From assembly GCA_948144175.1 (NCBI GenBank), contig CANXME010000298.1:258001-322000 (forward strand): a stretch of 64,000 nt of DNA, written 5' to 3'. This stretch comes from Closterium sp. NIES-65 (taxonomy: Eukaryota > Streptophyta > Zygnematophyceae > Desmidiales > Closteriaceae). Positions 24,234 through 40,992 of the stretch are shown here, piece after piece. Positions within the stretch are counted from its first letter, which is position 1. Each line of letters begins with the position of its first letter. The translations under genes and the position numbers were made by a program. The notes under the pieces were generated by a model. That model was not told the origin of the DNA and did not search any database. It saw only the letters and a program-made list of their open reading frames with translations.

Positions 24234-25643
24234 ATGTGTGTGGACGTAATGCGCGTATGTTTCTGCGTGAAACTGAAATGCAACGTGCACCTTTGTGTCC
24301 CTATTTCATGCGCTCTGCCCTCAAGAGCATTTGCCTCGCAGAACGAATCTGATGTCAACATCACTGTGGGTAAAGTCTACTCCTCGGTGGACACCGGAAG
24401 GGATGAGATGCGCCGCTATGGCCGACAGCATATGTTTGAGCCAATTTTCCCGAGAAACAATTCCACGCGCATCGAGGCATGGTGCAAGTCCATGGTTGGG
24501 AAACGTTGGCCTGTCAATGAGACTAAAGCACCTGAAGGGTTTTGCCCTTTCCGTGTTATCATATGTGGTCCTTCGTCAAGCTGTCTTAGGGTCACTACTG
24601 CTCGTTTACGTTATGCGGACAAGTGTACGGTTGGTCCCGGTCGTGTGCGGATAGACGAGGTAAAAGAGATCGCACGAGACATCATGAGTCATAGTGAGGT
24701 GAAACCTAAGGGCTTGATGAAGAGGGTTTCAGAAGTGCTGGGTGTGTCATGCTCGTACGCTCTAGCCCATGGAGTGATTGCTGAGGTGAGACTGGAGAAA
24801 GCATTCGCGGGGGATGAGGGCTTTCAGTACATGGAAGACCTTTTGAGGATTTTCGAAGACAAGAACCCCACTAGTGTGGTATCCATGGAGAAAAAACGAG
24901 GTCGTTTTTTCCGAGCAGGTGTCATTTTCCCGGGTGCAAGGAAGATGTTAGAGAACTGCCTGCCAATCATATTTGCTGACGGTTGTCATGACAAAACCCA
25001 GTGGGCAGGCCACACCCTCAACTTGTGTCTCTTTGACAGCCAGCACAAGTTGGTGAGACTTGGTTGTGCTTGGGTGGAGGGAGAAAACAAGGAGTCATGT
25101 AGTTACATCTTCAATCTGCTTCTGAGGGTTGTTCCTGAAGTGAACTCTGCCGATTACGTCATGATGCATGACCGTGGTGGTGCTTGGAAGGCAGCCACCG
25201 CGAGATGCCTGCCATTGATTCGGGAATCATACTGCATCACCCATCTAGTGCGGAATTTCAAAAGCAAATTCGGATCAGACCTCGATGGTCGGATTTTGGC
25301 TGCAGCCGTAGCTTTGACTGACGCTGTACATGCTGGACACATGGCCAAGATCAATGAGGAATGTCCTGGGGGGGTAGCATATCTCGTGGACAAATCACTG
25401 TCCATGAAGTGGGCAACAACCGAGTTTAATGCACCCCGATTCGGCTGCTACTCCTCAAATCTAGTTGAGTCGCATCATGCGTCGCTCTCTGGATTGAGAG
25501 AGAAGAACGCACCACAGGTGCTATTGAGGCTGTCATATAAACTCGCCCCAATAATGGAAAAGAGGCGCAAAGAGTACTCTGCCTTGACTGATTCCGACCT
25601 ACCCACTAAGACAGGGCTGATTGTCAAAGCAAACCGGGACCGC
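24234..25643 (+). CDS. MULE transposase, catalytic part (exon cut by the gypsy insertion)
   Basis: About 470 codons up to the insertion point. An N-terminal DNA-binding-like region is followed by the DDE core: IFADGCHDK near residue 247, MMHDRGGAWKAA near 311, the MULE motif CITHLVRNF near 333 and NLVESHHASL near 409 (D, D, E). The frame continues on the far side of the gypsy at 40993. Joining the sides with one CGC reads D-R-S-R-S-Y, so the gene was intact at insertion. A tract TTTGCCTCGCAG at about 24331-24342 looks like a splice acceptor, so the true first exon may lie upstream and the ATG at 24234 may be wrong. Mutator transposases bind the terminal repeats and cut in the nucleus. Confidence 0.88.
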
Positions 25644-25851
25644 TGTCGGAAATGCTCTGTATGGCCCCTTTCTCCTGACTCCCACCGACCACGCCTGTAG
25701 ACCCCTGAGTCTCCCTTCCCCCTTCCACTTGTCTCTTCTTGGACTCTTCCCCCCCCCCTTACTTTCTCTTGCTCTTGCTCTAGGGTACTACCGACGCCCT
25801 AACAGCTGTATACTGTGTGCCGTGTGGCAGCGTTCCATCATGACATCTCAC
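25644..25851 (-). repeat. Split direct repeat B2 of the gypsy element
   Basis: 208 bp starting TGTCGGAAATGCTCTG on the plus strand and ending GACATCTCAC. It matches B1 with three substitutions and is contiguous with A2. Confidence 0.92.
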
Positions 25852-26437
25852 TCAGAAAATCTCCTTGCCACTACCGGCTGACAAGCTGGTTCCCTAGCGT
25901 GCTCATGACTGCCTGCGAGTGAGTTAACAGGATTACATTGGAGCAAACGGGAAACATACAACGAAGCAGCCTACACTAGGGTATCAGCTCTGCTATGTAC
26001 AAGCCAACTTTGCTGCCCTAGCCTAGCGCCTCTATCATGCACACATCACATGGGCGAGGCTCGGGGTGCCGAGCCATATTTCCAAACCGCAGGCGCTCTG
26101 AATCTGCATGGGCTCCAGCGCACGCCCTTCGCCAGCTGCAAGCTTGGCGTGCATGTTCAACTGCAGCTTTTGCCACCTGTCGGCTGTGCTGCACTTATTC
26201 GCGTCAACAGCTCTCGCCCTGCACAGGACACAAACGAAACATGCACCACCCCGACTCATACACCCACCATTCTCATGCAAACTTTCTTGAGCGTTATTTA
26301 CAATTATGTACACCCACCCTTCTTCCCTCCGCACTTGTAGATTCAGCTTCTGCCACATCCTCCCACTCTCCCTGCTGCCAACTCTTGGCGCTGTCTCGGT
26401 TCCTATGCGGCCCTCCTGGCTACATAAACCGCGACAG
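25852..26437 (-). repeat. Split direct repeat A2 of the gypsy element
   Basis: 586 bp from TCAGAAAATCTCC to CGCGACAG. It matches A1 with about three substitutions. One base (C, 26438) separates it from B1. Confidence 0.92.
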
Positions 26438-26438
26438 C

Positions 26439-26646
26439 TGTCGGAAATGCTCTGTATGGCCCCTTTCTCCTGACTCCCACCGACCACGCCTGTAGACCCC
26501 TGAGTCTCCCTTCCCCCTTCCACTTGTCGCTTCTTGGACTCTTCCCCCCCCCCTTACTTTCTCTTGCTCTTGCTCTGGGGTACTACCGACGCCCTAACTG
26601 CTGTATACTGTGTGCCGTGTGGCAGCGTTCCATCATGACATCTCAC
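26439..26646 (-). repeat. Split direct repeat B1 of the gypsy element
   Basis: 208-bp near-copy of B2. It begins about 20 bp beyond the pol stop codon and ends at the palindromic joint with A2. Confidence 0.92.
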
Positions 26647-26665
26647 TTGCCCCCTCTGGAACAGA

Positions 26666-29600
26666 CTAGGGCTCCTGCTGGTTCTGATCCAGACCACTCA
26701 AACTCCTACATCGCGCCCTTGCTGTGTTCGTGGTGTGGTCCTGGACCCTCCTGCCCTGCTGATTCTCCAGCACCACCACTCCAGACTCTCGGACTTCTAC
26801 CACTCTCCAGCGTTCCTTGCTGAGGCCACGGTCTAACGTGTGCTGCCGCGCCGTCCTGCGATACACTTCCTGCCCTTCCTGCAGCTGCCCTCCACTTGCT
26901 GGCCTCTGCCCCCCGAGCCTCTGCTGGTACCGATGCGCGTCTCGCAGCTGAGCCACATGAAGATTCTCTAACGCTGAAGGCAGAAGCGCTCGTAGGTAAT
27001 CCCCCTTGGCCTTGGCCAGTGCTGCCCACAACTCTGGGGTTCCTGCTGTCACCACATCAGTCAACACTTTGGGCGCCCCTACCGGCAGGATCGGCTCTCT
27101 GCCATAGAGCAGATAGTAAGGGGACACGTCTCGCAGCGCCGCCTGCTTGCTGAACCGGTACCCCGCAGCAACCCAGTGCAGATCCTCATCCCAGCTGCGC
27201 TTGTGTGCCTCTCCATATGCCCGTAGCCCTCGCTTGAGTGTCTGCACCATCCGCTCTGTGAGGCCATCAGCTTGTGGATGATACCGGGAGGTCCTTCTGT
27301 GCGTGATCCCGATAACTGCCAGCGCCTTGTCAAACTCCCCCCGAAACTCCGTGCCTTGATCCGTGAGCACTTCACCACATGCCCCCATCCTGGTGAGCAC
27401 TTGCTCCGTGAAGGCCTCCGTGACGAGTGCCGCGCTCTTACTGCTAAGAGCGCGCACCTCCACCCACTTACTGACATGCTCTATCATGACCAAAATGTAC
27501 CGCTTGCCTCGCCGGCTGAGGGGCAATTCCCCCGCCAAATCCAAGGACCATCTGTAGCCCAACCCGCGGATGGGGAGCGACTGTAGCTCTTGCTGGCTCT
27601 TCTCCAACTGGGCCTTATTGCGGTCGCAAGCCTCACATTGCGCCACCCGTTCCTTAATCTGTCGCGCCATGCCTGCCCACCACCAGCCCGTGTTGACCAG
27701 CTGGGTTGTTCTGACGTGCCCAAAGTGCCCCAACTGTCGGTGCCCCCTGTCAATGATGCCTTCTCGATCCGCTGGCGCAGGCACCAGCTTCCACCCCTCT
27801 CTGGTCCTCAGCTGTACCTGCCCCGCATACCACCTGTAGTGCTGTCCCCTTGCCCGTGCTCTCTCCGAGGCAGGCTCTTCTGCCTCCGTCTCTCCCCGCA
27901 GCCACCTGAGAGTTTCTTCGTCCTGCCATATGTCGGCTGCTCTGCGCTGCTCCTGACGCTGCTCCCCCTGCCTTTCTGCTTCTCTTGCCAGAGCCACGAG
28001 CCCGGCCACTGGCTCTGCCGCCGGCGGGTTACGCGATAGCCCATCCACGTGCTGAAGCGTCCAGCCTGGCCTGTGCTTCACCACGAAATCGAATTCCTGC
28101 AACCGCATGGCCCACCGCGCGTTGCGGCCTGTCAGCGTATGATTAGTCATTAGCCACAGCAGCGGCTGGTGGTCCGTCACCAGTGTGAACTCGCGCCCTT
28201 GCAGGTACACTCGGAAATGCGTCACCGCCCAAACCGCCGCCAACCCTTCTCCCTCGTAGGAGCTGTAGTTTGCCTCCGCTGCGTTGCAGCTGCGACTCGC
28301 AAAGGCCACCACCCTCTCCCCCTGCTCAGTCTGTTGGCTGAGCACGGCTCCCATGCCTGCGCTGCTCCAGTCAGTGTACAGCACGAACCTGGCCTCTGGC
28401 ATCGGCAGCAGAAGCACCGGTCCCGACTTCACGGCTTCCAGCAGGTCCCGTAGTGCCCCCTGCTCGGCCTCTCCCCACTTCCAGGCTACGTCCTCCCGCA
28501 GCAGCCTATTCAACAGAGCCGCCCGCCTACTAAAGTTCGGCACGAACTTACGGTAGTAATTCAAGAAGCCCAGAATTGCCCTCAGCGCGGAGCGACCACT
28601 CGGGGTCGCCAGGTTGTCCAGCACTGCGACCTTCGCTTGCTGAATGGTCATCTGGCCTCCACCCACTTCAAAGCCCAGATACCGCACCGTATTCGTGCCG
28701 AAACGGCACTTCTTGGGGTGGCATGTGAGTCCGGCTCCCCTGATGGCTTCCAAGACCTGCTGCACATCCTTCACGTGCTGCTCGGGCGTTGAGCTGAACA
28801 CAACTACGTCGTCTATGTAGCAGGCCGCGCAGTGCTGCAACGCGCGCAGCACCCGGTCCATTGCTTTCTGGAACACTGCCGACGCGTTCTTTAGTCCGAA
28901 AGGCATGAACAACCATTCGTACAGTCCGTCCGGCCCATGAAAAGCTGTCTTCCTCACATCCGCCTCCTTGATTCGTATCTGATTAAATCCCTGGCGAAGA
29001 TCCAGCGTGCTGAAGATCGCTGCCCCCTGCAACTTGTCGAATATCTCCTCTGGCGTAGGCATGTGATAGCGATTCGCCACCGTCAGCTTATTGAGGTCCC
29101 TGTAATCTCCGCACATGCGTCGCGACAGCACTTCTCCTGTAAGTTCTTTCCTCGCGGCCACCACGGTGGCAGCCGCGTACTCCGACTCAGAGGGCTTGAT
29201 GAGTCCTGCCTCCAGCAATTCCCGACACTTCTCTCTGCACAGATCAAGATCTCCTGGGCTCATGCGGCATTTGCGCTGGTACACCGGCACCTCCTCCGTC
29301 AGCCGAATCTCCATCTCTCCCCCGTTGTATTTGCCGAGCTCCTGCAGTGTGAAGGCAAATGCCTGTCGGAGCCTCCTCACCACGCTCCACATCTGCTCCC
29401 GCAGGTCTCCCTTCAACCCTTCTCCTACTTCCCATGCTCCATCCTCTTCTGCCGCTGGTCGGACTGCCGCTGTGCTTCCCCCTCCTTCGGTCTCGGCTTC
29501 CGGTTCCGACCCCGCCCCTGGCTCCTGCTGCCCCCTGCTTGTGTCTGCCACCCCAGCCCCGTTTGGTGACATCGGCTCGCCGGCTGCCACTGCTTCTCTT

Positions 29601-31983
29601 CTTGCCGGCAAAACTTCCAGCGCCATTAGAGCCCAACCTCGCTCTCTCTTCTGCTGCCTTTCCACCTGCAGGTCCAAGAGCCGCTGTTCCGCCCTCTGCT
29701 GGCTGGCGCGCACCTCTTCTACGCTCGCATCCCCTGGCCCTCCCACTTCCACTTCCATCTCCAGCTGCTTAGAGGCCAGGTGCATCTGTATCACGTGCAT
29801 CAGCCAATGCACCGCCTCCACGTCCATTGCTCGCCCGAGCGCTTCCCTCCGCTTGGCTCCTTCCACTCCTGGTGCTGCCGTGGCGTCAGGGACGAACCCC
29901 ATCGCCAGCTCTCGCTCCCTGGCCGAGGGCTCTTCCCACTGATCCTTCAGCCGGTCATACACCATGCCTGGGCCCGGCAACCCTTCGCTCCACACGAAGC
30001 CATGGGCCTGGTGGTGCGCCATCAGGGTGGGCCAGGCTTCTCTCGGCAGCCCGGGCTCATTGCACTGGAACTGACTTGGGTGATCGGGCTTTGTCACCGG
30101 CGCTGGCTCCCGATGCGTCTCCAGGATGTCCTCCACGGGGCGTGGCGAGGGCCTCTCGGTCTGTATGAGCTCCCATCTGAGCCTCCCTTCTGACACCCCA
30201 TTCTGCCAATACCGTCTAACCCTGTGCGCGTAAGACCCTTGCTGTACCGCATCCCATGCCACTCCCGGTCCCAGCGCTCCCGCCACCACTTCTAGCATTC
30301 GACGCACCGGCTCCCTACAGTCAGTCGAAAAGTCAGGGTTTTCCAGGATGTACAAGTACTCCCCGTGCTGCTGGTATATCAGCTTCATGACCCGCAGTAA
30401 CTCCGCGAAGAGCGTGGACCGTGGGTCATCCAATCCTTTGCCCTTCCCAGCCCTCGACACTCCCTGACACTCCCAACCTGCCACCAGCAGATCCACTCGT
30501 CCCCACTGTCGCACGTCCTCTGCCGCCACCTCCCTAATATCGTAGAGTGATTCTTCTTCCGCCTCTTCTTCTACCCCCAACATCAGCTGAGCCGGGTAGA
30601 TCCCTCTTAGCTTCCTTGCGTGGTTGAAGGCCATCCTGCGCACCACAGGATCTATCTCCACTAGTATCCACTTCTGTACTCTGCATCCCGCCTTTAGTGC
30701 TGCAGCCAGCCCCGTTCCGATTCCTCCGAACAGCTCGACAATGGTAATTGGTTCCTGCAGGCGCGTCAGATCTGTCAGCCTTGGGGGCAGCGCCAAGGAC
30801 CGCTCGGTCCTTTCTTCTTCCGCTTTGCGCGTCTCCTGCTCCAGCACGTATTGCTTCCAGGACCAATCTTCGATCTGCTCTTCCACTTGCGCCATACGCA
30901 CTCGAAAGGCTTCCCTCGGCTCGCGTCTCACGAAGTGCACAGGCAGGGTGCCTACGGGCCCATCATTCCTCCAGTACTGAGTCCGGTAGAGGACCTTCTC
31001 CTGCCAGGTGCAGATGGTGGCTCCCACACGATACAACAGCTCCATGCCTATCAGCAAATCAAAATCCTCTGACGGCGATATGCCGCACCGCATCCGGATT
31101 CGACATTCGTCCTTGGTGCCCGGCTGCAGGATCACTTCCACTGGCATGCGGGTGCAGGGCATCCACTTCGGCTCTCCTCCTTCTGCCGTCATCACCAGGA
31201 TTCCCCGTGTAATCAGCCGGTTCGGCAGGTCTAGTTCCAGCCTCTGAGCCAAGCCTTTCCCCAGGAGGATATGATGCGCTCCTGTGTCGATGATCGCTTG
31301 CGCCACCGTCACCCCTCCCACCGTGATTGCCCCCTTTTCGATTGTCACCACCGATGGCTGACACACCATGCGCTCTTTAGGATGTCTTTCTGATGTCATT
31401 TCTTGCTCTGGTTCGGCCGCGTACCCACGGAACCGCCTGACCCTCGGGGCGGGCAGCTCTCTCCTTTCCCCTTGATCACTCCTGAGCACTATCTCTTCTC
31501 GCTGCCGTGGCGCCCGCACCACGAGCACAAACTCTGCTTCGCTACTCCCCTCCTCCTCCTCTCTCGCCAACATGGCGGTCTCCTTGTGAGCCGAACCTTC
31601 CAGCTCCCTGATCCGTGCTTGCAGCACCAGCAGCTGCGCCTCCAAGTCCTTCTCGTTTCTGGGGCCCGCCGATCCTGGTCTCCGACTGTAGCAATCAGAT
31701 GTCCGATGTCCTCGCCTGCCGCAGTTCTCACAGGTGGGGACTTCTGGACACTCCCGTCGCATGTGCCCTTCCTTCTGGCAGTGATCACACCTTGGCGGCC
31801 TGCTGCAATCCCGCTGTAGATGCCCCTCCAGCCCGCACCGATGACACCTGCGCGTCTCCGCCTCCCGTGCGGCACGTCTACTGGAGGCTTCTCCGGTTGC
31901 CACGGCCGCCCAAGCCGACCCCCGTCGTCCCTCGGCCTGCATACCGCCTCTCTCCATCTCATATAGGCGGAGTCCCAGCTCGT
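26666..31983 (-). CDS. Gypsy pol: zinc knuckles, protease, cytosine-5 methyltransferase, RT, RNase H, integrase
   Basis: Uninterrupted frame; the first ATG after the copia B insertion is at 31957, but the frame joins upstream to gag across copia B. Counting from that ATG: three CCHC knuckles (residues 38-89: CHRCGLEGHLQRDC, CDHCQKEGHMRREC, CENCGRRGHRTSDC); aspartic protease AIIDTGAHHILLG near 224; methyltransferase 402-722; reverse transcriptase about 895-1065 with YIDD at 1047; RNase H with LYTDWSSAGMGAVL; HHCC zinc finger (HRQLGHFGH, CEACDRNK) and DDE integrase (SLDLAGEL, LTDQGTEF, HPQADGLTERM); then a short basic C-terminal domain. No chromodomain is recognised. All catalytic residues look intact, so this copy was active recently. 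RT-RH-INT order is that of Ty3/gypsy. Confidence 0.93.
29792..30754 (-). other. C5-cytosine methyltransferase domain within gypsy pol
   Basis: About 320 residues lie between protease and reverse transcriptase. Motif I is ELFGGIGTGLAAALKAG (S-adenosylmethionine binding), motif II region VEIDP, motif IV GWECQGVSRAG with the catalytic cysteine at pol residue 497, motif VI LENPDF with the expected ENx glutamate, motif VIII region QGSYAHRVRRYWQN, a motif IX/X region SARERELAMGFVPDAT and a terminal GRAMDVEAVHWLM. The order and spacing fit a complete, non-permuted enzyme of DNMT3/phage-like type. Unusual: the proline of the PC dipeptide in motif IV is glutamate. Expected role: methylating cytosines in element or target DNA in the nucleus; not shown by sequence alone. 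Confidence 0.9.
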
Positions 31984-31988
31984 ATTTC

Positions 31989-32120
31989 TGTCAGAACTTA
32001 TAGCTTACTTGTTTCTGTAGGCTATAGTGGGGTATCCCATAGGGGGTACAACCCAATTAGGGTTTCCTATTTGTACCCACTTCGTTCATAGTCATTTCAC
32101 TTCTCGTTCGTACTTTCTCA
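31989..32120 (+). repeat. 5' LTR of copia B
   Basis: 132 bp, TGTCAGAACTTATAG to TACTTTCTCA. Identical by eye to 39314-39445. Confidence 0.96.
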
Positions 32121-32135
32121 TGGAATCAGAGCAGG
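32121..32135 (+). other. Primer-binding site of copia B
   Basis: TGGAATCAGAGCAGG follows the LTR directly. It differs at one base from the plant initiator-Met tRNA site TGGTATCAGAGC. Confidence 0.8.
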
Positions 32136-32159
32136 TCCCTTCCTAGGGCCTGTTCCTAG

Positions 32160-33180
32160 GGCCCACCGAAGCGCGCCCCGAGGCGCGCATTTTTTTAGCG
32201 ACCCTCCGAGTCGCCCCTCCCGTCGTGCTCCCGCTTAGGCCCCTCGTCGGCCCCGCTTAGGCCCCTCGTCGGCCCCGCTTAGGCCCCTCGTCGGCCCCTG
32301 CTTAGGCCCCTCGTCGGCCCCGCGTACCCCTCGTCGGCCCCGCGTAGGCCCCGCGTACCCCTCGTCGGCCCCACGTAGGCCCCGCGTAGGCCCCGCGTAC
32401 CCCTCGTCGGCCCCGCGTAGGCCCCGCGTACCCCTCGTCGACCCCGCGTACCCCTCGTCGGCCCCGCGTAGGCCCCGCCCAGGCCCCGTCTCGGCCCCGT
32501 GTCGGCCCCGCGTAGGCTCCGTCGGCCCCGCTTAGGCCCCTCTTCGGCCCCGCGCCGGCCCCACCTACGCCCTGTCGGCCCCGCGCTGGCCCCGCTTAGG
32601 CCCGCCACCGGCCCCTGCTACAGCCCGCCGAGTCGGCCCCGCCTACAGCCCGCCGGCCCGCCTAGGCCCCACTTCGGCCCCTCGTCGGCCCCACTACAGC
32701 CCGCACCGGCCCCTGCTACAGCCCGCCACCGGCCCTGCTACAGCGGCCACCGGCCCCTGCTACAGCCCGCCACCGGCCCTGCTACAGCCCGCCACCGGCC
32801 CCGCTACAGCCGCCACCGGCCCCTGCTACAGCCCGCCACCGGCCCTGCTACAGCCGCCACCGGCCCCTGCTACAGCCCGCCACCGGCCCTGCTACAGCCC
32901 ACCACCGGCCCTGCTACAGCCGCCACCGGCCCCTGCTACAGCCCGCCGCCGGCCCTGCTACAGCCCGCCGCCGGCCCTGCTACAGCCCGCCACCGGCCCT
33001 GCTGCAGCCCGCCGTGCTGCACGTGAACAGCCCCAGCAGCCTGCGCCGCCCGTGAGCCCCTACGCCACCCGAGCCGCGCGAGCCGCCCGAGCCGCCCGAG
33101 CCGCCCGAGCCGCCCGAGCCGCCCGAGCCGCCCGAGCCGCCTGAGCCACGCGAGCCACCTGAGGAGCCGTGCTGCTGTCC
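32160..33180 (+). repeat. GC-rich tandem-repeat leader of copia B
   Basis: Successive blocks of different short repeats: GTAGGCCCCGCGTACCCCTC (32220-32600), CCGGCCCCTGCTACAGCCCGC (32600-33010) and GAGCCGCCC (33060-33150). The position is shared with the other short-LTR copia elements, but the unit sequences are not. Open frames across it on both strands are not counted as genes. Confidence 0.85.
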
Positions 33181-33248
33181 CTGAGCTGTGTTCCTCTGCT
33201 GCTGACCTACCCGACTCTTCCAGCCCGGTGAGACTTTCAGCTGCTGCC

Positions 33249-34322
33249 ATGGCCACCCCCAATGTTCTTACTTTTGATGCTGAGGGGAGGGCCATTGACT
33301 TTGCCGTCTGGATTGAAGACCTGCAGCTGTACTTACTGTGTGATGCGATAGATGAGGTCTCTCTCTTTGACTTTGTCTCTGGAGCTGTCCCTGCCCCGCC
33401 TGCTGATGCTGACTCTGCCGTTCGCTCCAAGTGGGCGACCCGCGATGCTGCTGCACGTCTTGCTGTGCGTCGCCACCTCCCTTCCTCTGAGCGTGCCCAC
33501 TTTAGTCAGTGCAAGACCGCTCAGGCCTTGTACGACGCTGTAGTTGCACGCTACTCCTCCCCTTCCTCCGCTACCCTTAGCCGCCTCATGCTACCGTTTC
33601 TCTTCCCTGACCTCGCTTCCTTTCCCACTGTCGCTGACCTCGTTACCCACCTCCGCGCTAGTGACGCTCGCTACCGCGCTGCCCTTCCTGCTGAGTTCCG
33701 CGCCGCAAACCCTCCTCCCATGTATATCACTCTCTACTTTCTCGTCACCCGTCTTCCTGAGTCCCTTCGTGTCGTTAGGGACCAGTTTCTCTCTGTCTGT
33801 CCCACCACCCTCACTGTCGACCTCCTTGAGGAGTCCCTGCTAGCGGCTGAGAAGAGTATTGTCGCTGTAGGGGCCTCTAGGGGTGACCCTCGCACCCCCA
33901 TCTTTGAGGGGTGTTCTCCTTCCCCCCTGCTGCCCTCTGTCGCCTCTGCTGCTACGGCCGACCTCGCTGGTTTTGAGTCGGTCGGTGCGGCGTCTGCCCC
34001 CAGCGGCAGACGCCGCTCTGGCAAGGGCAAGGGGGGCAAGGGAGCGGGTGGATCTAGAGGAGGCAGTGGCGGAGGAGGTGGGGGTGGCGGGGGGAGTGGG
34101 GGTGGCGGTGGAGGTGGTGGCGGGAGTGGAGGTACTAGTGGCGGCGGTGGAGGCGGAGGTGGCGGCGGAGGTGGTAGCGGAGGAGGCGGTGGGAGCGGTG
34201 GGAGCGACAGTCCTGGTGGGGGAGGTGGCGGTGGAGACGGGGGTGGCGGTGGAGGCGGGGGTGGTGGTGGAGGCGGGGGTCGAAGTGGCTCGTCCCAGCG
34301 GAGCAGCTCTGGGGGTGGTCAG

Positions 34323-34360
<38 letters not shown>

Positions 34361-34373
34361 GCAGCAGCAGTAG
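33249..34373 (+). CDS. Copia B gag
   Basis: The ATG at 33249 (MATPNVLTFDAEGRA) is preferred over the upstream 33228 ATG because related copies all begin MA(T/S)P. Residues 1-230 form the copia gag core (YDAVVARYSSP, LPESLRVVRDQFLS). Then a basic GKGKGGKGAGG patch, a 90-residue glycine-rich tract and a polyglutamine run end at TAG (34371-34373). The frame continues in register into pol. The same point in copia E and F has no stop. Gag forms the particle in which reverse transcription takes place. Confidence 0.9.
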
Positions 34374-37300
34374 CGCTCTCGCACCGTCCCCGGCCCTCAG
34401 CAGCTCCGTGAGTGGTACTTGCAGCGTCAGCGCGGTGGTGCTCTTGGTCCCTGCCCCTACGTTCTTCGCACCGGTGACCGTGCGGGGGAGAGGTGTGGAG
34501 GCGCCCACACAGCCCGTCGCTGCTTTGGCCGCCTGACCGACGCCTGGCGTCAGCAGTTTCCGGAGGCCGCTGAGATCCCCCGCTGGGGAGAGCTGTCTAG
34601 GGCTGGAGTAGCTATTTATGATCTTGACTTTGATGCTATTCTCTCTGCTATGTATGCTGTGACTGGTAGTGATGAGGATGACTGTTACCGGTGTTTCCCG
34701 CCCGACCCGGGCATTGGTACTGCCGCGTCAGGTACTAGTGAGGCTGCTGCTCTAGGTGCCAGTGCGTCTGTGCTCTCAGGTGCTGGTGAGTCTGCCCTCT
34801 CAGGTACTGTGTCGGCTTCGGCCTCTCACACCTTCACCCTTGACTCTGGAGCGTCTCGCTCCTTCTTTAGGGACCGCACCACTCTCACGCCGCTGAGTCG
34901 GCCGGTTGCAGTGTCCCTGGCTGACCCCTCTGGGGGGCCGGTCCTGGCTCGCTTCTCCACTGTCCTCCCGTGTCCGGCGGCCCCCTCTGGCACCCTGACT
35001 GGTCTCTACCTCCCCTCGTTCTCGACGAACTTGGTGAGTGGTGCTGACCTCCAGGATGCGGGTGTCCACCAGTTCACCCCTGCTCGTCAGCGGGTGACCC
35101 ACTGCACGGAGGCGGATACAGGTCGCCACCTGGCTACGTTTACACGTCGGCCAGGGTCGAGCCTGTACACACTGACCACTGCTTCTCCTCCAGGTGCTGA
35201 GTCTGGTAGGGTCACTTCGTCTGGTCAGGTGTTTGCTGCAGCGTCCAGGTCTGGTCCTGAGTCTGCCCCCTGCTCGTGTCGTCGTCTGTCTCACGAGACC
35301 CTCCTCTGGCACCACCGCCTTGGCCACCCCTCTCTGCTTCGGCTCAGAGGCATGGCCTCGCGAGTCCTTGTGTCTGGTCTTCCCCGGTCTCTCCCTCCCC
35401 TTCCTCCGGGCCCTGGCCCCACCTGTGTCCCCTGTGTCGAGGGGCGCCAGCGTGCTGCCCCTCACTCCTCCCAGTTTCCTCCCACAGAGGCCCCGTTGCA
35501 GACGCTTCACATGGACGTGTGGGGCCCAGCCCGCGTCCGTGGACAGGGTCAGGAGCGCTACTTCCTGCTGGTGGTTGACGACTACTCGCGTTACACCACA
35601 GTCTTCCCCTTGCGCAGCAAGGGTGAGGTCACTGAGGTGCTGATCGACTGGATCCGCGCAGCTCGTCTCCAGCTTCGGAGGAGCTTTGGCTCTGACTTCC
35701 CTGTTTTGCGTCTGCACTCGGACAGAGGTGGAGAGTTCTCCTCCGGCCTCCTGAGTGCCTACTGTCGTGTGCGAGGCATCCGTCAGACCTTCACGCTTCC
35801 GGACTCACCGCAGCAAAATGGGATTGCTGAGCGCCGCATTGGCATGGTCATGGACGTCGCTCGTACGTCCATGATGCATGCGGCTGCTCCCCATTTTCTG
35901 TGGCCGTTTGCGGTCAGGTACGCTGCGCACCAGATCAACCTCCACCCCAGGGTCTCTCGACCGGAGACCTCCCCAGCCCTGCTGTGGACGGGGAAGGTTG
36001 GCGATGCGTCGGCGTTCCGGGTCTGGGGATCTCGGGCGTTTGTTCGCGACCTGTCTGCGGACAAGCTGTCCCCTCGTGCTTCTCCCTGCGTCTTCCTGGG
36101 GTTCCCCCCCGACGCCCCTGGGTGGCAGTTTTACCACCCCACCTCTCGACGTGTTCTGTCCTCCCAGGACGTCACGTTTGACGAGTCGGTGCCCTACTAC
36201 CGCCTCTTCCCCTACCGCACTCCGTCCCTCCGCCCACCCCCGCTCTTCTTGGTACCAGGTCCCCCCCCGGTAGTCCCCCTCCCCCCTCAGGGTCCTGCCC
36301 CTTCAGGTGTGTCCCAGGTAGACGCGGTCGAGCCTGTCGAGGTCGCTGGTGACTCTGGTGCTGCTGCGGGAGCTGAGCCTGGGGGTGCGGAGTCTGGGGG
36401 TGCTGAGCCTGGAGGTGCCGAGTCTGGGGGTGCTGAGCCTGGGGGTGCTGAGCCTGGAGGTGCTGTGTCTAGGGGTGCTGAGCCCGGGGGTGCTGTGCCT
36501 GGGGGTGCTTCGTCTCGCCGGGAGCCACTCTCCCCACAGGAGCTGCGTGAGTGGTTTGCCGGGCGCTGGAGGCGTGCTGCTGGTGCTGGTGGTTCTTCGG
36601 CTGCAGAGGGCACTGCTGCTGCGCGCCCCGCCGGTGCTCGTACTGTGGGTGCTGGAGCTGCTGAGTCTGAGAGTTCTCCTGGAGCTGGTCCTGCTGAGGG
36701 TGTTGGCGCTGAGCCTGCCGTTGGCGGCCCGACTGACAGTGCTCCTGGTGCTGCGGCTGGAGGTTCTGGAGCTTCTGGTGGTGCTGCTGGAGGTGCTGCT
36801 GGAGTGAGTGCTCCTGCCGGGGCTGCTGGTGCTGTTCCTGCTGTTTCTAGCGTCGCCGCGCGGCCCCGACCGTACTTCGTTCCGCTCCTGCAGCAGGTTC
36901 TTGGTCTTACACCTCCTCCTCCTCCCTTAGAGGGTCCGCAGCCTGTCCGGTCACAGCCACAGCTACAGCCTGCCTCCCCTTTGCCTGCTCCTTCTCCCTA
37001 CACTGGTCCGACTGGAGGTCTTACTGAGCGTCGTGAGCCTGCGTCTCGTCCTGTGTCGCCTGTTCGTACTGAGCGCGCTAGTGGTCGCGGGTCGCGTCAG
37101 CGTCCTCCTCCTGTCCCTGGCACGCACCGGATGTCACTGCGTCCGTCCACTGCTCCTCTGCGTGCCCCTTTGCCTTCTCCTCCTGCTTCCTCTCTTCCTG
37201 CTCTTGCCGACCCGGAGTCGGACGCTCTTCGTGCTGCCAGCCCTACTGTCACGCGTCTCCTGGCTACTGCTGTCACTGACCCCTCCTTCGAGTCGTCTGC

Positions 37301-39116
37301 TGCGTCTGCCCTTGTCACTGAGCTTGTCGACTTTGCTGCGCGCTGTCGTCTAGACTACGCTGCTCGTCTTGTCACTGAGTCTGAGTCCGCCTGTCCTCCG
37401 TCCGTCGGGGGTGAGTGTGCCCTTGGCACGGACGTCCTTGAGGACAGGCAGGAGGAGTTCCAGTGTCTGGCCGCCGCTTCACCTCGTCTCGCGTCTGTAC
37501 TGCTTGCCCCTGAGGGAGACCCGGATGCACCAGACATCCCGACTCCGCGCTCTTACGCGGAGGCGATAGAGGGTCCCTACTCCTCTCAGTGGCAGGCAGC
37601 TATGGATGCAGAGATGGCTTCCTGGAAGTCCACAGGCACCTACGTTGACGCTGTTCCCCCTCCTGGGGCAAACATCGTCAGTGGCATGTGGATTTTCAGG
37701 GTGAAGCGGCCGCCGGGTTCTCCGCCTGTCTTCAAGGCGCGTTACGTGGCTCGTGGCTTCAGTCAGCGGCAGGGGGTTGACTACTTTCAGACCTTCTCCC
37801 CCACCCCGAAGATGACCACTCTTCGGGTTCTGCTACACGTTGCTGCTCACCGTGACTACGAGCTGCACTCTCTCGACTTCAGCACAGCTTTCTTGCAGGG
37901 CAGCCTGCACGAGGAGATCTGGCTGCGTCGCCCACCTGGTTTCACTGGGTCTTTCCCTCCTGGTACCCAGTGGAGTCTCCGGCGTCCAGTCTACGGTCTC
38001 CGCCAGGCGCCACGTGAGTGGCACGACACACTGAGGACTACGCTCGCGGCACTTGGGTTTGCTCCTTCCACTGCCGACCCGTCGCTGTTTCTGCGCACCG
38101 ACACCTCTCTGCCGCCGTTCTACATCCTCGTGTACGTCGACGACTTGGTCTTTGCCACAGCTGACACTGCTGGACTCGCCTACGTGAAGTCCGAGCTGCA
38201 GAAGAGACACACGTGCACTGACCTGGGTGAACTGCGCAGCTACCTTGGCTTGCAGATCACCCGGGACAGAGCACGCCGCACCATTACCCTGACTCAGTCA
38301 CACATGGTGCAGCAGGTCCTTCAGCGCTTCGGCTTCACGTACTCCTCGCCTCAGGCCACTCCTCTGCCTACTCGCCACTCGCTCTCAGCTCTGCCTTCGG
38401 ATGAGTCCGTAGAGTCGAGTGGCCCGTTTGCAGAGCTTGTTGGCTGCCTCATGTACCTGATGACCTGCACACGACCTGACCTCGCATACCCTCTTAGCAT
38501 TCTCGCACGCTTTGTTGCTCCTGGGAGACACCGACCAGAGCACATGGCTGCAGCGAAGAGGGTGTTGCGCTACTTGTGCAGTACGTCGGGCATGGGGCTA
38601 GTGCTTGGAGGGCGCAGTCCAGTGGTCCTCACTGGGCACGCAGACGCTTCTTGGGCTGACGACCAGGCTACGCAGCGGTCGTCACAGGGTTACACCTTCA
38701 GCCTTGGTTCCGGCTCTGTCTCGTGGCGGGCTACCCGCTCGTCTTCTGTTCTCGGCTCCAGTTGTGAGGCTGAGATCTACGCTGGGGCTATGGCTGCACA
38801 GGAGTTACGCTGGCTCACCTACCTGCTGACCGACCTTGGAGAGCAGCCTCGTTCTCCTCCAGTCCTGTACGTAGACAACAAGGCCATGCTGGCCTTGTGT
38901 CGAGAGCAGCGACTGGAGCACAGAACGAAGCACATTGCTCTTCGCTACTTTCTTGCTCGTGAGCTACAGCAGCGTGGACAGCTGCGACTTGCGTACGTGG
39001 CCTCTGAGGCCAACACTGCTGATGTCTTCACCAAGGCACTTGCGCCTTGTGATCATCAGCGTTGCTGCACGCAGTTGGGTCTTGTGCCTGTCTTGCCTCA
39101 CTTGCTCTCCTCTTGA
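34374..39116 (+). CDS. Copia B pol polyprotein
   Basis: Uninterrupted from the TAG to 39116, in the gag frame. In order: altered zinc motif CPYVLRTGDRAGERCGGAH; protease FTLDSGASRSFFRD; pre-integrase HHRLGHPSLLRLRG with CVPCVEG; integrase MDVWGP, HSDRGGEF and QQNGIAERRIG; a 400-residue Gly/Ala/Glu/Pro linker with repeats; reverse transcriptase (WIFRVKRPPGSPPVFKARYV, YVDDLVFA); RNase H (TGHADASWADD, SSCEAEIYA, VDNKAMLAL, ANTADVFTKAL). All catalytic positions are present. Expression would need readthrough of the upstream TAG or internal initiation; otherwise this copy is silent. It lies on the strand opposite to its gypsy host. Confidence 0.93.
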   Translation, partial: RSRTVPGPQQLREWYLQRQRGGALGPCPYVLRTGDRAGERCGGAHTARRCFGRLTDAWRQQFPEAAEIPRWGELSRAGVAIYDLDFDAILSAMYAVTGSDEDDCYRCFPPDPGIGTAASGTSEAAALGASASVLSGAGESALSGTVSASASHTFTLDSGASRSFFRDRTTLTPLSRPVAVSLADPSGGPVLARFSTVLPCPAAPSGTLTGLYLPSFSTNLVSGADLQDAGVHQFTPARQRVTHCTEADTGRHLATFTRRPGSSLYTLTTASPPGAESGRVTSSGQVFAAASRSGPESAPCSCRRLSHETLLWHHRLGHPSLLRLRGMASRVLVSGLPRSLPPLPPGPGPTCVPCVEGRQRAAPHSSQFPPTEAPLQTLHMDVWGPARVRGQGQERYFLLVVDDYSRYTTVFPLRSKGEVTEVLIDWIRAARLQLRRSFGSDFPVLRLHSDRGGEFSSGLLSAYCRVRGIRQTFTLPDSPQQNGIAERRIGMVMDVARTSMMHAAAPHFLWPFAVRYAAHQINLHPRVSRPETSPALLWTGKVGDASAFRVWGSRAFVRDLSADKLSPRASPCVFLGFPPDAPGWQFYHPTSRRVLSSQDVTFDESVPYYRLFPYRTPSLRPPPLFLVPGPPPVVPLPPQGPAPSGVSQVDAVEPVEVAGDSGAAAGAEPGGAESGGAEPGGAESGGAEPGGAEPGGAVSRGAEPGGAVPGGASSRREPLSPQELREWFAGRWRRAAGAGGSSAAEGTAAARPAGARTVGAGAAESESSPGAGPAEGVGAEPAVGGPTDSAPGAAAGGSGASGGAAGGAAGVSAPAGAAGAVPAVSSVAARPRPYFVPLLQQVLGLTPPPPPLEGPQPVRSQPQLQPASPLPAPSPYTGPTGGLTERREPASRPVSPVRTERASGRGSRQRPPPVPGTHRMSLRPSTAPLRAPLPSPPASSLPALADPESDALRAASPTVTRLLATAVTDPSFESSAASALVTELVDFAARCRLDYAARLVTESESACPPSVGGECALGTDVLEDRQEEFQCLAAASPRLASVLLAPEGDPDAPDIPTPRSYAEAIEGPYSSQWQAAMDAEMASWKSTGTYVDAVPPPGANIVSGMWIFRVKRPPGSPPVFKARYVARGFSQRQGVDYFQTFSPTPKMTTLRVLLHVAAHRDYELHSLDFSTAFLQGSLHEEIWLRRPPGFTGSFPPGTQWSLRRPVYGLRQAPREWHDTLRTTLAALGFAPSTADPSLFLRTDTSLPPFYILVYVDDLVFATADTAGLAYVKSELQKRHTCTDLGELRSYLGLQITRDRARRTITLTQSHMVQQVLQRFGFTYSSPQATPLPTRHSLSALPSDESVESSGPFAELVGCLMYLMTCTRPDLAYPLSILARFVAPGRHRPEHMAAAKRVLRYLCSTSGMGLVLGGRSPVVLTGHADASWADDQATQRSSQGYTFSLGSGSVSWRATRSSSVLGSSCEAEIYAGAMAAQELRWLTYLLTDLGEQPRSPPVLYVDNKAMLALCREQRLEHRTKHIALRYFLARELQQRGQLRLAYVASEANTADVFTKALAPCDHQRCCTQLGLVPVLPHLLSS

Positions 39117-39288
39117 CCTTGCTTGTACTTTCGCATATATATGCTCTTGCTCTTGTATATCTCTATATATGATCTTGCATGTGAACTGGCCTTGTGGCCT
39201 TTGAACTTGTGCTCGGAATGCGTGGTGACTTTGTGATCCACCCTGAGCTTTGCTTTGCTTTGCTTGACCGGTCTTGTGACCCCTTGTT

Positions 39289-39313
39289 CTCCCCCACTTT
39301 GCCTATGGGGGTG
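39289..39313 (+). other. Conserved hairpin / polypurine tract before the 3' LTR of copia B
   Basis: Same 25 bases as in copia A (CTCCCCCACTTTGCC then TATGGGGGTG), ending at the LTR start. Confidence 0.75.
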
Positions 39314-39445
39314 TGTCAGAACTTATAGCTTACTTGTTTCTGTAGGCTATAGTGGGGTATCCCATAGGGGGTACAACCCAATTAGGGTTTCCTATTTGTA
39401 CCCACTTCGTTCATAGTCATTTCACTTCTCGTTCGTACTTTCTCA
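39314..39445 (+). repeat. 3' LTR of copia B
   Basis: 132 bp, same as the 5' LTR by eye; followed by ATTTC. Confidence 0.96.
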
Positions 39446-40397
39446 ATTTCTTCGCCAGCTCATACGCGTACTCCAGCGTCGCCGATGGTCCCCTCTCAAA
39501 CACCCTTCCTCGTACATCCCCGGCCACCCGCTCGTCCAGGCAGTTGAGGAATTTGGAGACCAGCCTCCACTCATCCCTGCACTCCATGTCCGCCGCCAGC
39601 TCGCGCAGTCTGCCGTACGTTGCTAGCAGAGATTCTCCCGTCTTCCTTTTGAACGACGCGAACTCCCTCATGCGCTCCGGCGTCTGTACTGGGAAGTGGC
39701 CCTTCAGCGTGTCGAAAAACTGTGCCACTACGTCCCAGGTCACTCCGCTGGCTTGTGCCGGCTCACTCAGCATGCGCTCTAGCTCCATGCCATACGCGGT
39801 CTCCGCTTCTCCTGTCACGGTGTTCGAGAGTCCCCGGAAGAAGTCTTCTGGCTCCAGGCCGTCCTTCATCCAGCGATACTGCGCGTTGCGGATCTGCATC
39901 ATGTAATTCTTCAGACTGCTGCCCACGCCTGGCGTGCCTGCGAAGCGCTCGGGCACCTCTATCTTGGGCAGCGCAGCGTACTTCACGTTGCCCGGGCGTG
40001 CTACCTCCGTCACTTGATGCTCTGACAAGGAGAGACGCCTCAAGCGCCCGAGCAGCTCGCCGTCAGTACCGCCCTCTCCTTGCGCGTTAACCGTGCGCGA
40101 CGGCGACCCTCCCGTGGTGGCTTCCACCCGCGGTCTCCCCGTCGAGCTCTCTCTCGCGTCCCGACCCTCGCTCGGCAGGTCACCCATGCTGTGCCTCCGA
40201 TGCGGTGCCGTGTAGGCCTCCCTGCGGGCGCCGTCTTCCGTCTCGCCCGCCTGCGTCCTTTTCTCGCTCCCCGTGACTTCTCCTGCACGCCATCCTGGCG
40301 TCGCCATCGTCGCCAATTCTGGCGGCCGCTCGTAACGCTTCCCAGAGCGTGTCTGCATGCGCTGTCCAAGGCGCTTTACTCCGGAGATTTCCTTCAT
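39446..40397 (-). CDS. Gypsy gag (5' part of the gag-pol frame, cut by copia B)
   Basis: The ATG at 40397 (MKEISGVKRLGQRMQ) opens 6 bp inside repeat A1. A charged, disordered N-terminal half precedes a retrotransposon gag core (KIEVPERFAGTPGVGSSLKNYM, FASFKRKTGESLLATYGRLRELAADM, FLNCLDERVAGDVRG). It ends at LEYAYELAKK, where copia B interrupts. The frame resumes at 31983 with YELGLRLYEMERG and leads to the zinc knuckles, so gag and pol form one fused frame of about 2,090 codons. Gag proteins coat the element RNA in the cytoplasm. Confidence 0.9.
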
Positions 40398-40403
40398 TGT
40401 ATG

Positions 40404-40989
40404 TCAGAAAATCTCCTTGCCACTACCGGCTGACAAGCTGGTTCCCTAGCGTGCTCATGACTGCCTGCGAGTGAGTTAACAGGATTACATTGGAGCAAAC
40501 GGGAAACATACAACGAAGCAGCCTACACTAGGGTATCAGCTCTGCTATGTACAAGCCAACTTTGCTGCCCTATCCTAGCGCCTCTATCATGCACACATCA
40601 CATGGGCGAGGCTCGGGGTGCCGAGCCATATTTCCAAACCGCAGGCGCTCTGAATCTGCATGGGCTCCAGCGCACGCCCTTCGCCAGCTGCAAGCTTGGC
40701 GTGCATGTTCAACTGCAGCTTTTGCCACCTGTCGGCTGTGCTGCACTTATTCGCGTCAACAGCTCTCGCCCTGCACAGGACACAAACGAAACATGCACCA
40801 CCCCGACTCATACACCCACCATTCTCATGCAAACTTTCTTGAGCGTTATTTACAATTATGTACACCCACCCTTCTTCCCTCCGCACTTGTAGATTCAGCT
40901 TCTGCCACATCCTCCCACTCTCCCTGCTGCCAACTCTTGGCGCTGTCTCGGCTCCTATGCGGCCCTCCTGGCTACATAAACCACGACAG
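40404..40989 (-). repeat. Split direct repeat A1 of the gypsy element
   Basis: 586-bp near-copy of A2, at the 5' (gag) end. It should contain the promoter. Outer end CACGACAG, then CGC of the target duplication. Confidence 0.92.
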
Positions 40990-40992
40990 CGC

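Follow-up and report, generated by a model that had tools for sequence, protein, structure and literature searches.

Our analysis of a 64,000-nucleotide stretch of Closterium sp. NIES-65 DNA (hereafter the window, at its full length) revealed a retrotransposon that is a gypsy element by its domains and a variant by its integrated layout, which reads A-gag-pol-B-A-B and not LTR-internal-LTR. We propose, as the likely reading, a gypsy element whose LTR is B-GC-A, whose integrase cuts a palindrome inside the 5' LTR, and whose cDNA ends are joined end to end. With somewhat less assurance, we favor the broader view that the lineage routinely integrates through a circle-junction palindrome pre-built into its LTR, the cDNA ends being ignored. 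The observations that carry this model are a heritable layout, 4-bp target duplications, a constant B-GC-A joint next to a variable A2/B2 joint, a polypurine tract (PPT), a covarying self-primer and primer-binding site (PBS), and copies that end at the expected right end of the cDNA.

Table 1. Features of the element and its flanks, in window coordinates.
Feature	Coordinates	Strand	Basis or remark
Whole element, TGTCG...CGACA, Copia-interrupted	25644..40988	-	repeat comparison
Left target duplication, CCGC on +	25640..25643	.	3/4 bases as in right copy
Right target duplication, GCGC on +	40989..40992	.	flank comparison
A1: 3' part of U3, then predicted R-U5	40405..40988	-	repeat and primer-site comparison
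Self-primer segment CTTCGTTGTATGT within A1	40506..40518	-	complementarity to PBS
PBS ACATACAATGAAG	40392..40404	-	1 base off the 13-nt complement
gag ORF	39417..40397	-	first ATG inside PBS, not conserved
Nested Copia, 132-bp LTRs, ATTTC 5-bp duplication	31989..39445	+	repeats and duplication
pol ORF, 1763 aa	26666..31957	-	ORF list and Pfam
C5-methyltransferase region, residues 393-790	29588..30781	-	Pfam; motif IV ECQ, not PCQ
Integrase H2C2 and rve core, residues 1396-1561	27275..27772	-	Pfam
PPT AGAGGGGGCA, immediately before B1	26648..26657	-	adjoins B1
B1: 5' part of U3	26439..26647	-	repeat comparison
Palindrome CGACAGCTGTCG at the B1-GC-A2 joint, proposed internal integrase site	26432..26443	.	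sequence
A2	25853..26436	-	repeat comparison
A2/B2 joint TTTTCTG/AGTGAG, proposed end-joined LTR-LTR junction	25852..25853	-	sequence
B2	25644..25852	-	repeat comparison

Read along the minus strand from 40988 to 25644, the order is A1, gag, pol, B1, GC, A2, B2 (Table 1). As the first-pass annotation had it, the repeat pairs are nearly identical, A1 and A2 agreeing at 581 of 584 positions (584 of 587 when three flank bases that match by chance are counted) and B1 and B2 at 206 of 209; the inverted outer ends TGTCG/CGACA and the palindrome at the B1-A2 joint are present as described, and the frame of the surrounding MULE transposase is open across the joined flanks when the element is removed. 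Some boundaries had to be redrawn: the element ends at 40988 and not 40989, B1 and A2 are separated by GC (2 bases) and not by a single base, and the supposed 3-base CGC flank is a 4-bp duplication (GCGC/GCGG in element orientation, 3/4 identical). There is an ATG 6–7 bp past A1, where gag had been placed 6 bp after that repeat, but it lies inside the PBS and is found at only 2 of 17 places, and it is therefore unlikely to be the gag start of the family. The nested Copia element (7457 bp, LTRs 132/132 identical) serves as an ordinary-LTR control inside the gypsy element. A hairpin, GGAGATTT..AAATCTCC, spotted by eye, spans the boundary between A and gag.

The genome (874 Mb, 2400 contigs) was searched for copies, those with shared flanks being counted as one insertion. 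The B1-A2-B2 block occurs at no fewer than 14 independent insertions in two related families, with A1 upstream in 13; several independent full copies in the same order, the check that the first-pass annotation had called for, thus establish that the layout is heritable. In the window family, for which 40 of 188 candidates were scored with a query that favors B1-A2-B2, so that counts are lower bounds, the block is present at at least seven sites (C298, the C1809 group, C1052/C382, C2230, C2165, C191, and the C2201 group), with A1 upstream except at C191, and with only the end of A1, beside a gap, at C2165. At least four further sites hold A-gag-pol-B only (C1806, C783, C73, and the C2033 group), and at the C1295/C1244 site A2 is cut short. 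Family 2 (C53), whose pol is 68.6% identical to that of the window, has the block at at least seven sites among the 40 of 277 candidates scored (C53, C266, C244, C2111, C1883/C1805, the C128 group, and C752), each of the seven with an upstream A; C106 represents a further subfamily with the layout. Within a copy, A1 and A2 are 97.0–99.8% identical, compared with 79–96% between copies (five copies compared), a pattern as would be expected for LTRs remade in each cycle. B1 and B2 are 97.6–99.5% identical within five copies and 89–90% in C191 and C2201, where the differences are mostly gaps. Recombination may account for the A-gag-pol-B and solo A-B forms, or these may be direct products; the solo C1832 and the full copy C266 occupy one site, and this solo is thus either a recombination product or an allele of C266.

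The flanks of C382 (L011, L014, L037) and C1052 (L010, L036) are identical, and C382 carries a tandem A-ORF-B-A-ORF-B-A-B, as would result from unequal exchange between A repeats or from haplotypes. At L001:864-1639, B-GC-A is followed by an inverted second copy of B (134 bp at 100%), and an 887-bp foldback at L054:1080-1966 terminates at the CGACAGCTGTCG palindrome, with no element pieces beside it except short Copia matches.

A perfect 4-bp duplication flanks 22 of the 25 independent insertions with both flanks read (binomial p 5e-48 for 21/24 sites, before C73 was added), a count that excludes C1532 and C2188, whose 3' ends are not B2, and C2165, C191, C1295, and C32, where an end or flank is missing. 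The duplications are ACTA, ATGT, CTAC, TGAC, GAAG, CACT, GTAG, CAGT, CAGC, GAGG, GCTA, and GACT in the window family and GCTT, GCAC, GCGT, CCTG, CATG, GTTG, TAGG, ACGT, CTCT, and ACTC in family 2. They accompany full, A-gag-pol-B, and solo A-B forms alike, and the copies that have them end in TGTCG..CGACA, that is, in TG..CA. At two sites, the window and C1883, the match is 3 of 4 bases; C783 has flanks without any duplication and is counted against the proposed mechanism. TG..CA termini with a 4-bp duplication are those of Ty3/gypsy elements (4–6 bp), and the impression that the duplication was not gypsy-like does not survive. Identity with Troyka, for which the available text gives a 3-bp duplication and CG..CG termini (PMC12440569), was rejected on both features.

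The coding capacity likewise points to gypsy. The internal region is filled by gag and pol, and pol encodes CCHC, protease, C5-cytosine DNA methyltransferase, RT, RNase H, and H2C2 plus rve integrase domains (Pfam), with the order protease-RT-RNase H-integrase and the DDE integrase of Ty3/gypsy elements. A tyrosine recombinase domain (PF00589) was found in neither ORF (Pfam, E 0.01); the earlier reading of a DDE integrase and no tyrosine recombinase is confirmed for the two ORFs, and such a recombinase is ruled out for the element, there being no domain and no room beside gag and pol.

What, then, is the LTR of this element? The PPT AGAGGGGGCA adjoins B1 in 22 of the 22 rows compared; C53 and C106 have GGGAGGGGGCA at its position. 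Immediately downstream of A1, a stretch of 13 nt shows complementarity to a segment within A, about 101 nt before the end of A. Among 11 copies, complementarity extends over all 13 nt in seven, over 8 nt followed by a mismatch in three (the window included, whose PBS differs from other copies by C-to-T at a CpG), and over 11 nt in one. The pair covaries between subfamilies (ACATAC/GTATGT versus ACATTC/GAATGT), and family 2 has a different primer/PBS pair of 15–16 nt. Shuffled versions of A reached at most 11 nt of complementarity, three times in 20,000. In folding of the leader, the minimum-energy structure pairs primer with PBS and is weak overall (z -1.67; equaled by 12 of 200 shuffles). A tRNA-type PBS was rejected, no TGG directly following A1 in the copies compared. 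The first-pass annotation had seen no PBS, but a self-primed one exists directly after A1, and a PPT as well, so that the element has the PPT before the 3' LTR and the PBS after the 5' LTR of Ty3/gypsy elements and, at the level of sequence, the PBS complementary to its own 5' RNA that characterizes Tf1. From the PPT before B1 and the complementarity of the PBS to a segment in A, it follows that the element, like Tf1, probably primes its own reverse transcription, and that the resulting LTR is probably B-GC-A. Tf1/sushi elements and Tcn1 have ordinary LTRs and integrate at the LTR ends, unlike the window element with its split repeats and proposed internal site. The likeness lies in a PBS that is complementary to the 5' region of the element's own RNA, as given in the available text on these elements (PMC6317226, PMC4600332).

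The two joints behave differently. The B-GC-A spacer, counted in the window family only, is GC at 16 of 16 places that represent nine independent insertions, one of which reads CGACAGCTGTCA. Further B1 ends, outside this count, occur in C1824, C1912, C655, C965, C1782/C1674, C1731, and C1851, and C1976 has B-GC-A. When the exact flanks were searched in the whole genome with a spacer of 0–12 bases allowed, all 14 matches had 2 bases, and the palindrome itself occurs 220 times, compared with 21 for its reversed control. It is also present in C53, C106, and C32, which lend no independent support since these places were found by palindrome search. The A2/B2 joint, in contrast, is plain at 8 and altered at 15 of 23 independent joints, full copies and solos taken together and C106 and C32, whose A ends are not established, left out (5 plain and 7 altered in the window family; 3 plain, the commonest form there, and 8 altered in family 2). 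The alterations comprise +T, +A, +G, +TA, +AT, ACC, a 13-nt near-duplication, deletions of 4 and 2 nt at microhomologies, and, at C752, a large deletion with about 14 nt of filler (by eye). The family-2 spectrum runs from none added through +T, +A, +G, +TA, +AT, and the 13-nt near-duplication to the large filled deletion, in copies that are 96–100% alike (C1905 91%) despite their differing joints. The extra T and TA correspond to the bases that come next in the PBS. Length changes cluster at A2/B2, with none at B-GC-A, PPT/B1, or A1/PBS in the rows compared. Two copies end differently: in C2188, A is followed by precisely the 16 nt of the primer copy, and C1532 stops at A2, B being absent from the 3 kb beyond. 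Both look as the right ends of linear cDNA would be expected to. The solos C1638 and C1052:5.04M (L050, L069) have A cut at 468–469, the predicted RNA start; these cuts are left unaccounted for by the proposed mechanism and are counted against it.

In the proposed mechanism, the RNA would start in A1 (predicted at about A469) and end in A2, and its own 5' segment would prime at the PBS, yielding a linear BA-gag-pol-BA. The DDE integrase would then bypass the LTR ends and cut the LTR-internal palindrome, CGACA^GC^TGTCG, where cleavage after CA on both strands would leave 2-nt 5' overhangs; one palindrome cut would thus generate two 3'-processed ends at once (CA-3'OH, 2-nt overhang), to be inserted with a 4-bp duplication. 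If the site in the 5' LTR is the one cut, A-gag-pol-B-A plus B would result, and end-joining of the cDNA ends would bring A2 and B2 together, either once strand transfer has occurred or earlier, in a two-LTR circle. Cleavage in the 3' LTR instead would give A-B-A-gag-pol-B, and cuts at both would give A-gag-pol-B and A-B. The palindrome cut by the integrase, the limits of the RNA, and whether joining or integration comes first are inferred steps. Precedents for the cut come from the available text of in vitro studies, in which PFV integrase cleaves its LTR-LTR palindrome with 2-nt 5' overhang geometry (PMC1180852) and HIV-1 integrase is reported to cleave an internal palindrome (PMC1905944).

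Are the two palindromes used equally? If a two-LTR circle were opened at random, A-B-A-gag-pol-B and A-gag-pol-B-A-B should be equally frequent. B precedes A1 at none of 18 window-family insertions with the 5' end read (C2165 being unreadable, the middle copy of the C382 tandem set aside, and the exact start of C1976 not recognised) and at none of eight in family 2. Only the relative C32 shows B there, its 5' end reading A-B-GC-A, as expected if the 3' LTR site was cut; its 3' end was not found. The palindromes are thus used unequally, which somewhat favors cutting of linear cDNA over random circle opening, and we suggest that faster collapse of A-B-A or a preference for the 5' LTR site may explain the bias.

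Two-LTR circles show plain or near-plain joints, with 0–2 extra bases. It is conceivable, and in our estimate only a little short of probable, that no circle forms: linear cDNA would be cut at the palindrome of the 5' LTR, both processed ends inserted jointly, and the A2 end joined to the B2 start by host repair. Filler, microhomology, and large deletions at A2/B2 are in keeping with repair after insertion, as are C1532 and C2188, which look like an A end joined to other DNA, and the nearly exclusive use of one palindrome (B before A1 at 0/26), unlike random circle opening; the plain and near-plain joints are seen in circles as well.

An inherited joint whose differences arose by mutation after insertion appears improbable. 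The 8 plain joints of 23 could be inherited, and a microhomology joint, A570/B, is common to two sites (C2165 and C1052:4.96M), but mutation would have to strike the one joint at which length changes are concentrated, and the T and TA additions agree with the PBS sequence that comes next.

DIRS, PAT, and Ngaro elements are not known to make a target duplication. Replication in the PAT/Ngaro manner, with an RNA from A1 to B2, circle closure templated by B1-A2, and A2-B2 copied from the parent, is to our mind slightly more doubtful still. The A1-ORF-B1-A2-B2 order is that of PAT, Ngaro, and VIPER in the available text (PMC4157794, PMC6681497), and the identity of layout with tyrosine recombinase elements (PMC4157794) is the one argument for it. 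The resemblance noted in the first-pass annotation ends there: those elements have a tyrosine recombinase (PMC4157794, PMC6681497), whereas gag and pol encode none (Pfam) and the window element combines a DDE integrase with 4-bp duplications; moreover, copies that are nearly identical differ at A2/B2 but not in the length of their other joints, and the positions of PPT and PBS mark B-GC-A as the LTR. Insertion of a one-off permuted circle, or misassembly, fits a single copy only and can be dismissed in the face of 14 independent insertions that carry the block, the majority flanked by duplications of their own; of the earlier reading, a heritable gypsy lineage with a circle-like or permuted form stands, and the one-off alternative falls.

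What is new in this arrangement? A DIRS-like layout on a methyltransferase-bearing gypsy element is already published: the available text on KnitGypsy-Dnmt3 of Klebsormidium nitens (2018) notes DIRS-like repeats in a figure legend, and this element shares gypsy domains, a cytosine methyltransferase in pol, and DIRS-type repeats with that of the window, while the palindrome, joint heterogeneity, duplications, and priming are not described for it there (PMC5890265). The mechanism was not found in print: no description of an integrase site located within a retrotransposon LTR turned up in the literature searched, which excluded most subscription papers. The nearest idea is that of Panganiban and Temin (1984), in which integrase uses a circle-junction palindrome, also when placed inside a genome; according to the available text, the circle-junction route was proposed and later discarded for retroviruses (PMC11054761). 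The window element resembles the retroviral two-LTR junction in the putative use of an LTR-LTR-like palindrome by integrase, but its palindrome is built into the LTR, and copies with duplications end there. If the mechanism proposed here is true, the route dropped for retroviruses would be at work in nature, and the ends made by reverse transcription and those used by integrase, thought to be coupled, would be separable. DIRS-like split repeats could arise without a tyrosine recombinase, convergent with DIRS/PAT and here explained by a DDE integrase; the same mechanism may explain the repeats of KnitGypsy-Dnmt3. Each full insertion would carry one de novo end-joined LTR-LTR junction, so that the copies would document how cDNA ends were joined, and the two-LTR-circle question would become testable in sequence.

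With a C5-methyltransferase in a gypsy pol, and a K. nitens protein (P0016) collinear with the window pol (34.9% over 1624 aa), the element fits the KnitGypsy-Dnmt3 lineage as judged by its protein; the proteins nearest to the window pol are from Closterium. At this protein level, the two differ in motif IV of the methyltransferase, which is PCQ in P0016 as well as in P0006-P0008, P0010, and P0011, and ECQ in the window and 11 of 17 relatives, the Closterium ones included. Methyltransferase activity with an ECQ motif IV is uncertain. In C32 the methyltransferase was recognised by motif. Two scans detected no relatives in viral contigs. Many metagenome relatives of pol (P0029-P0087) carry a PHD finger (PF00628), and a Marchantia protein (P0121) fuses methyltransferase and RT.
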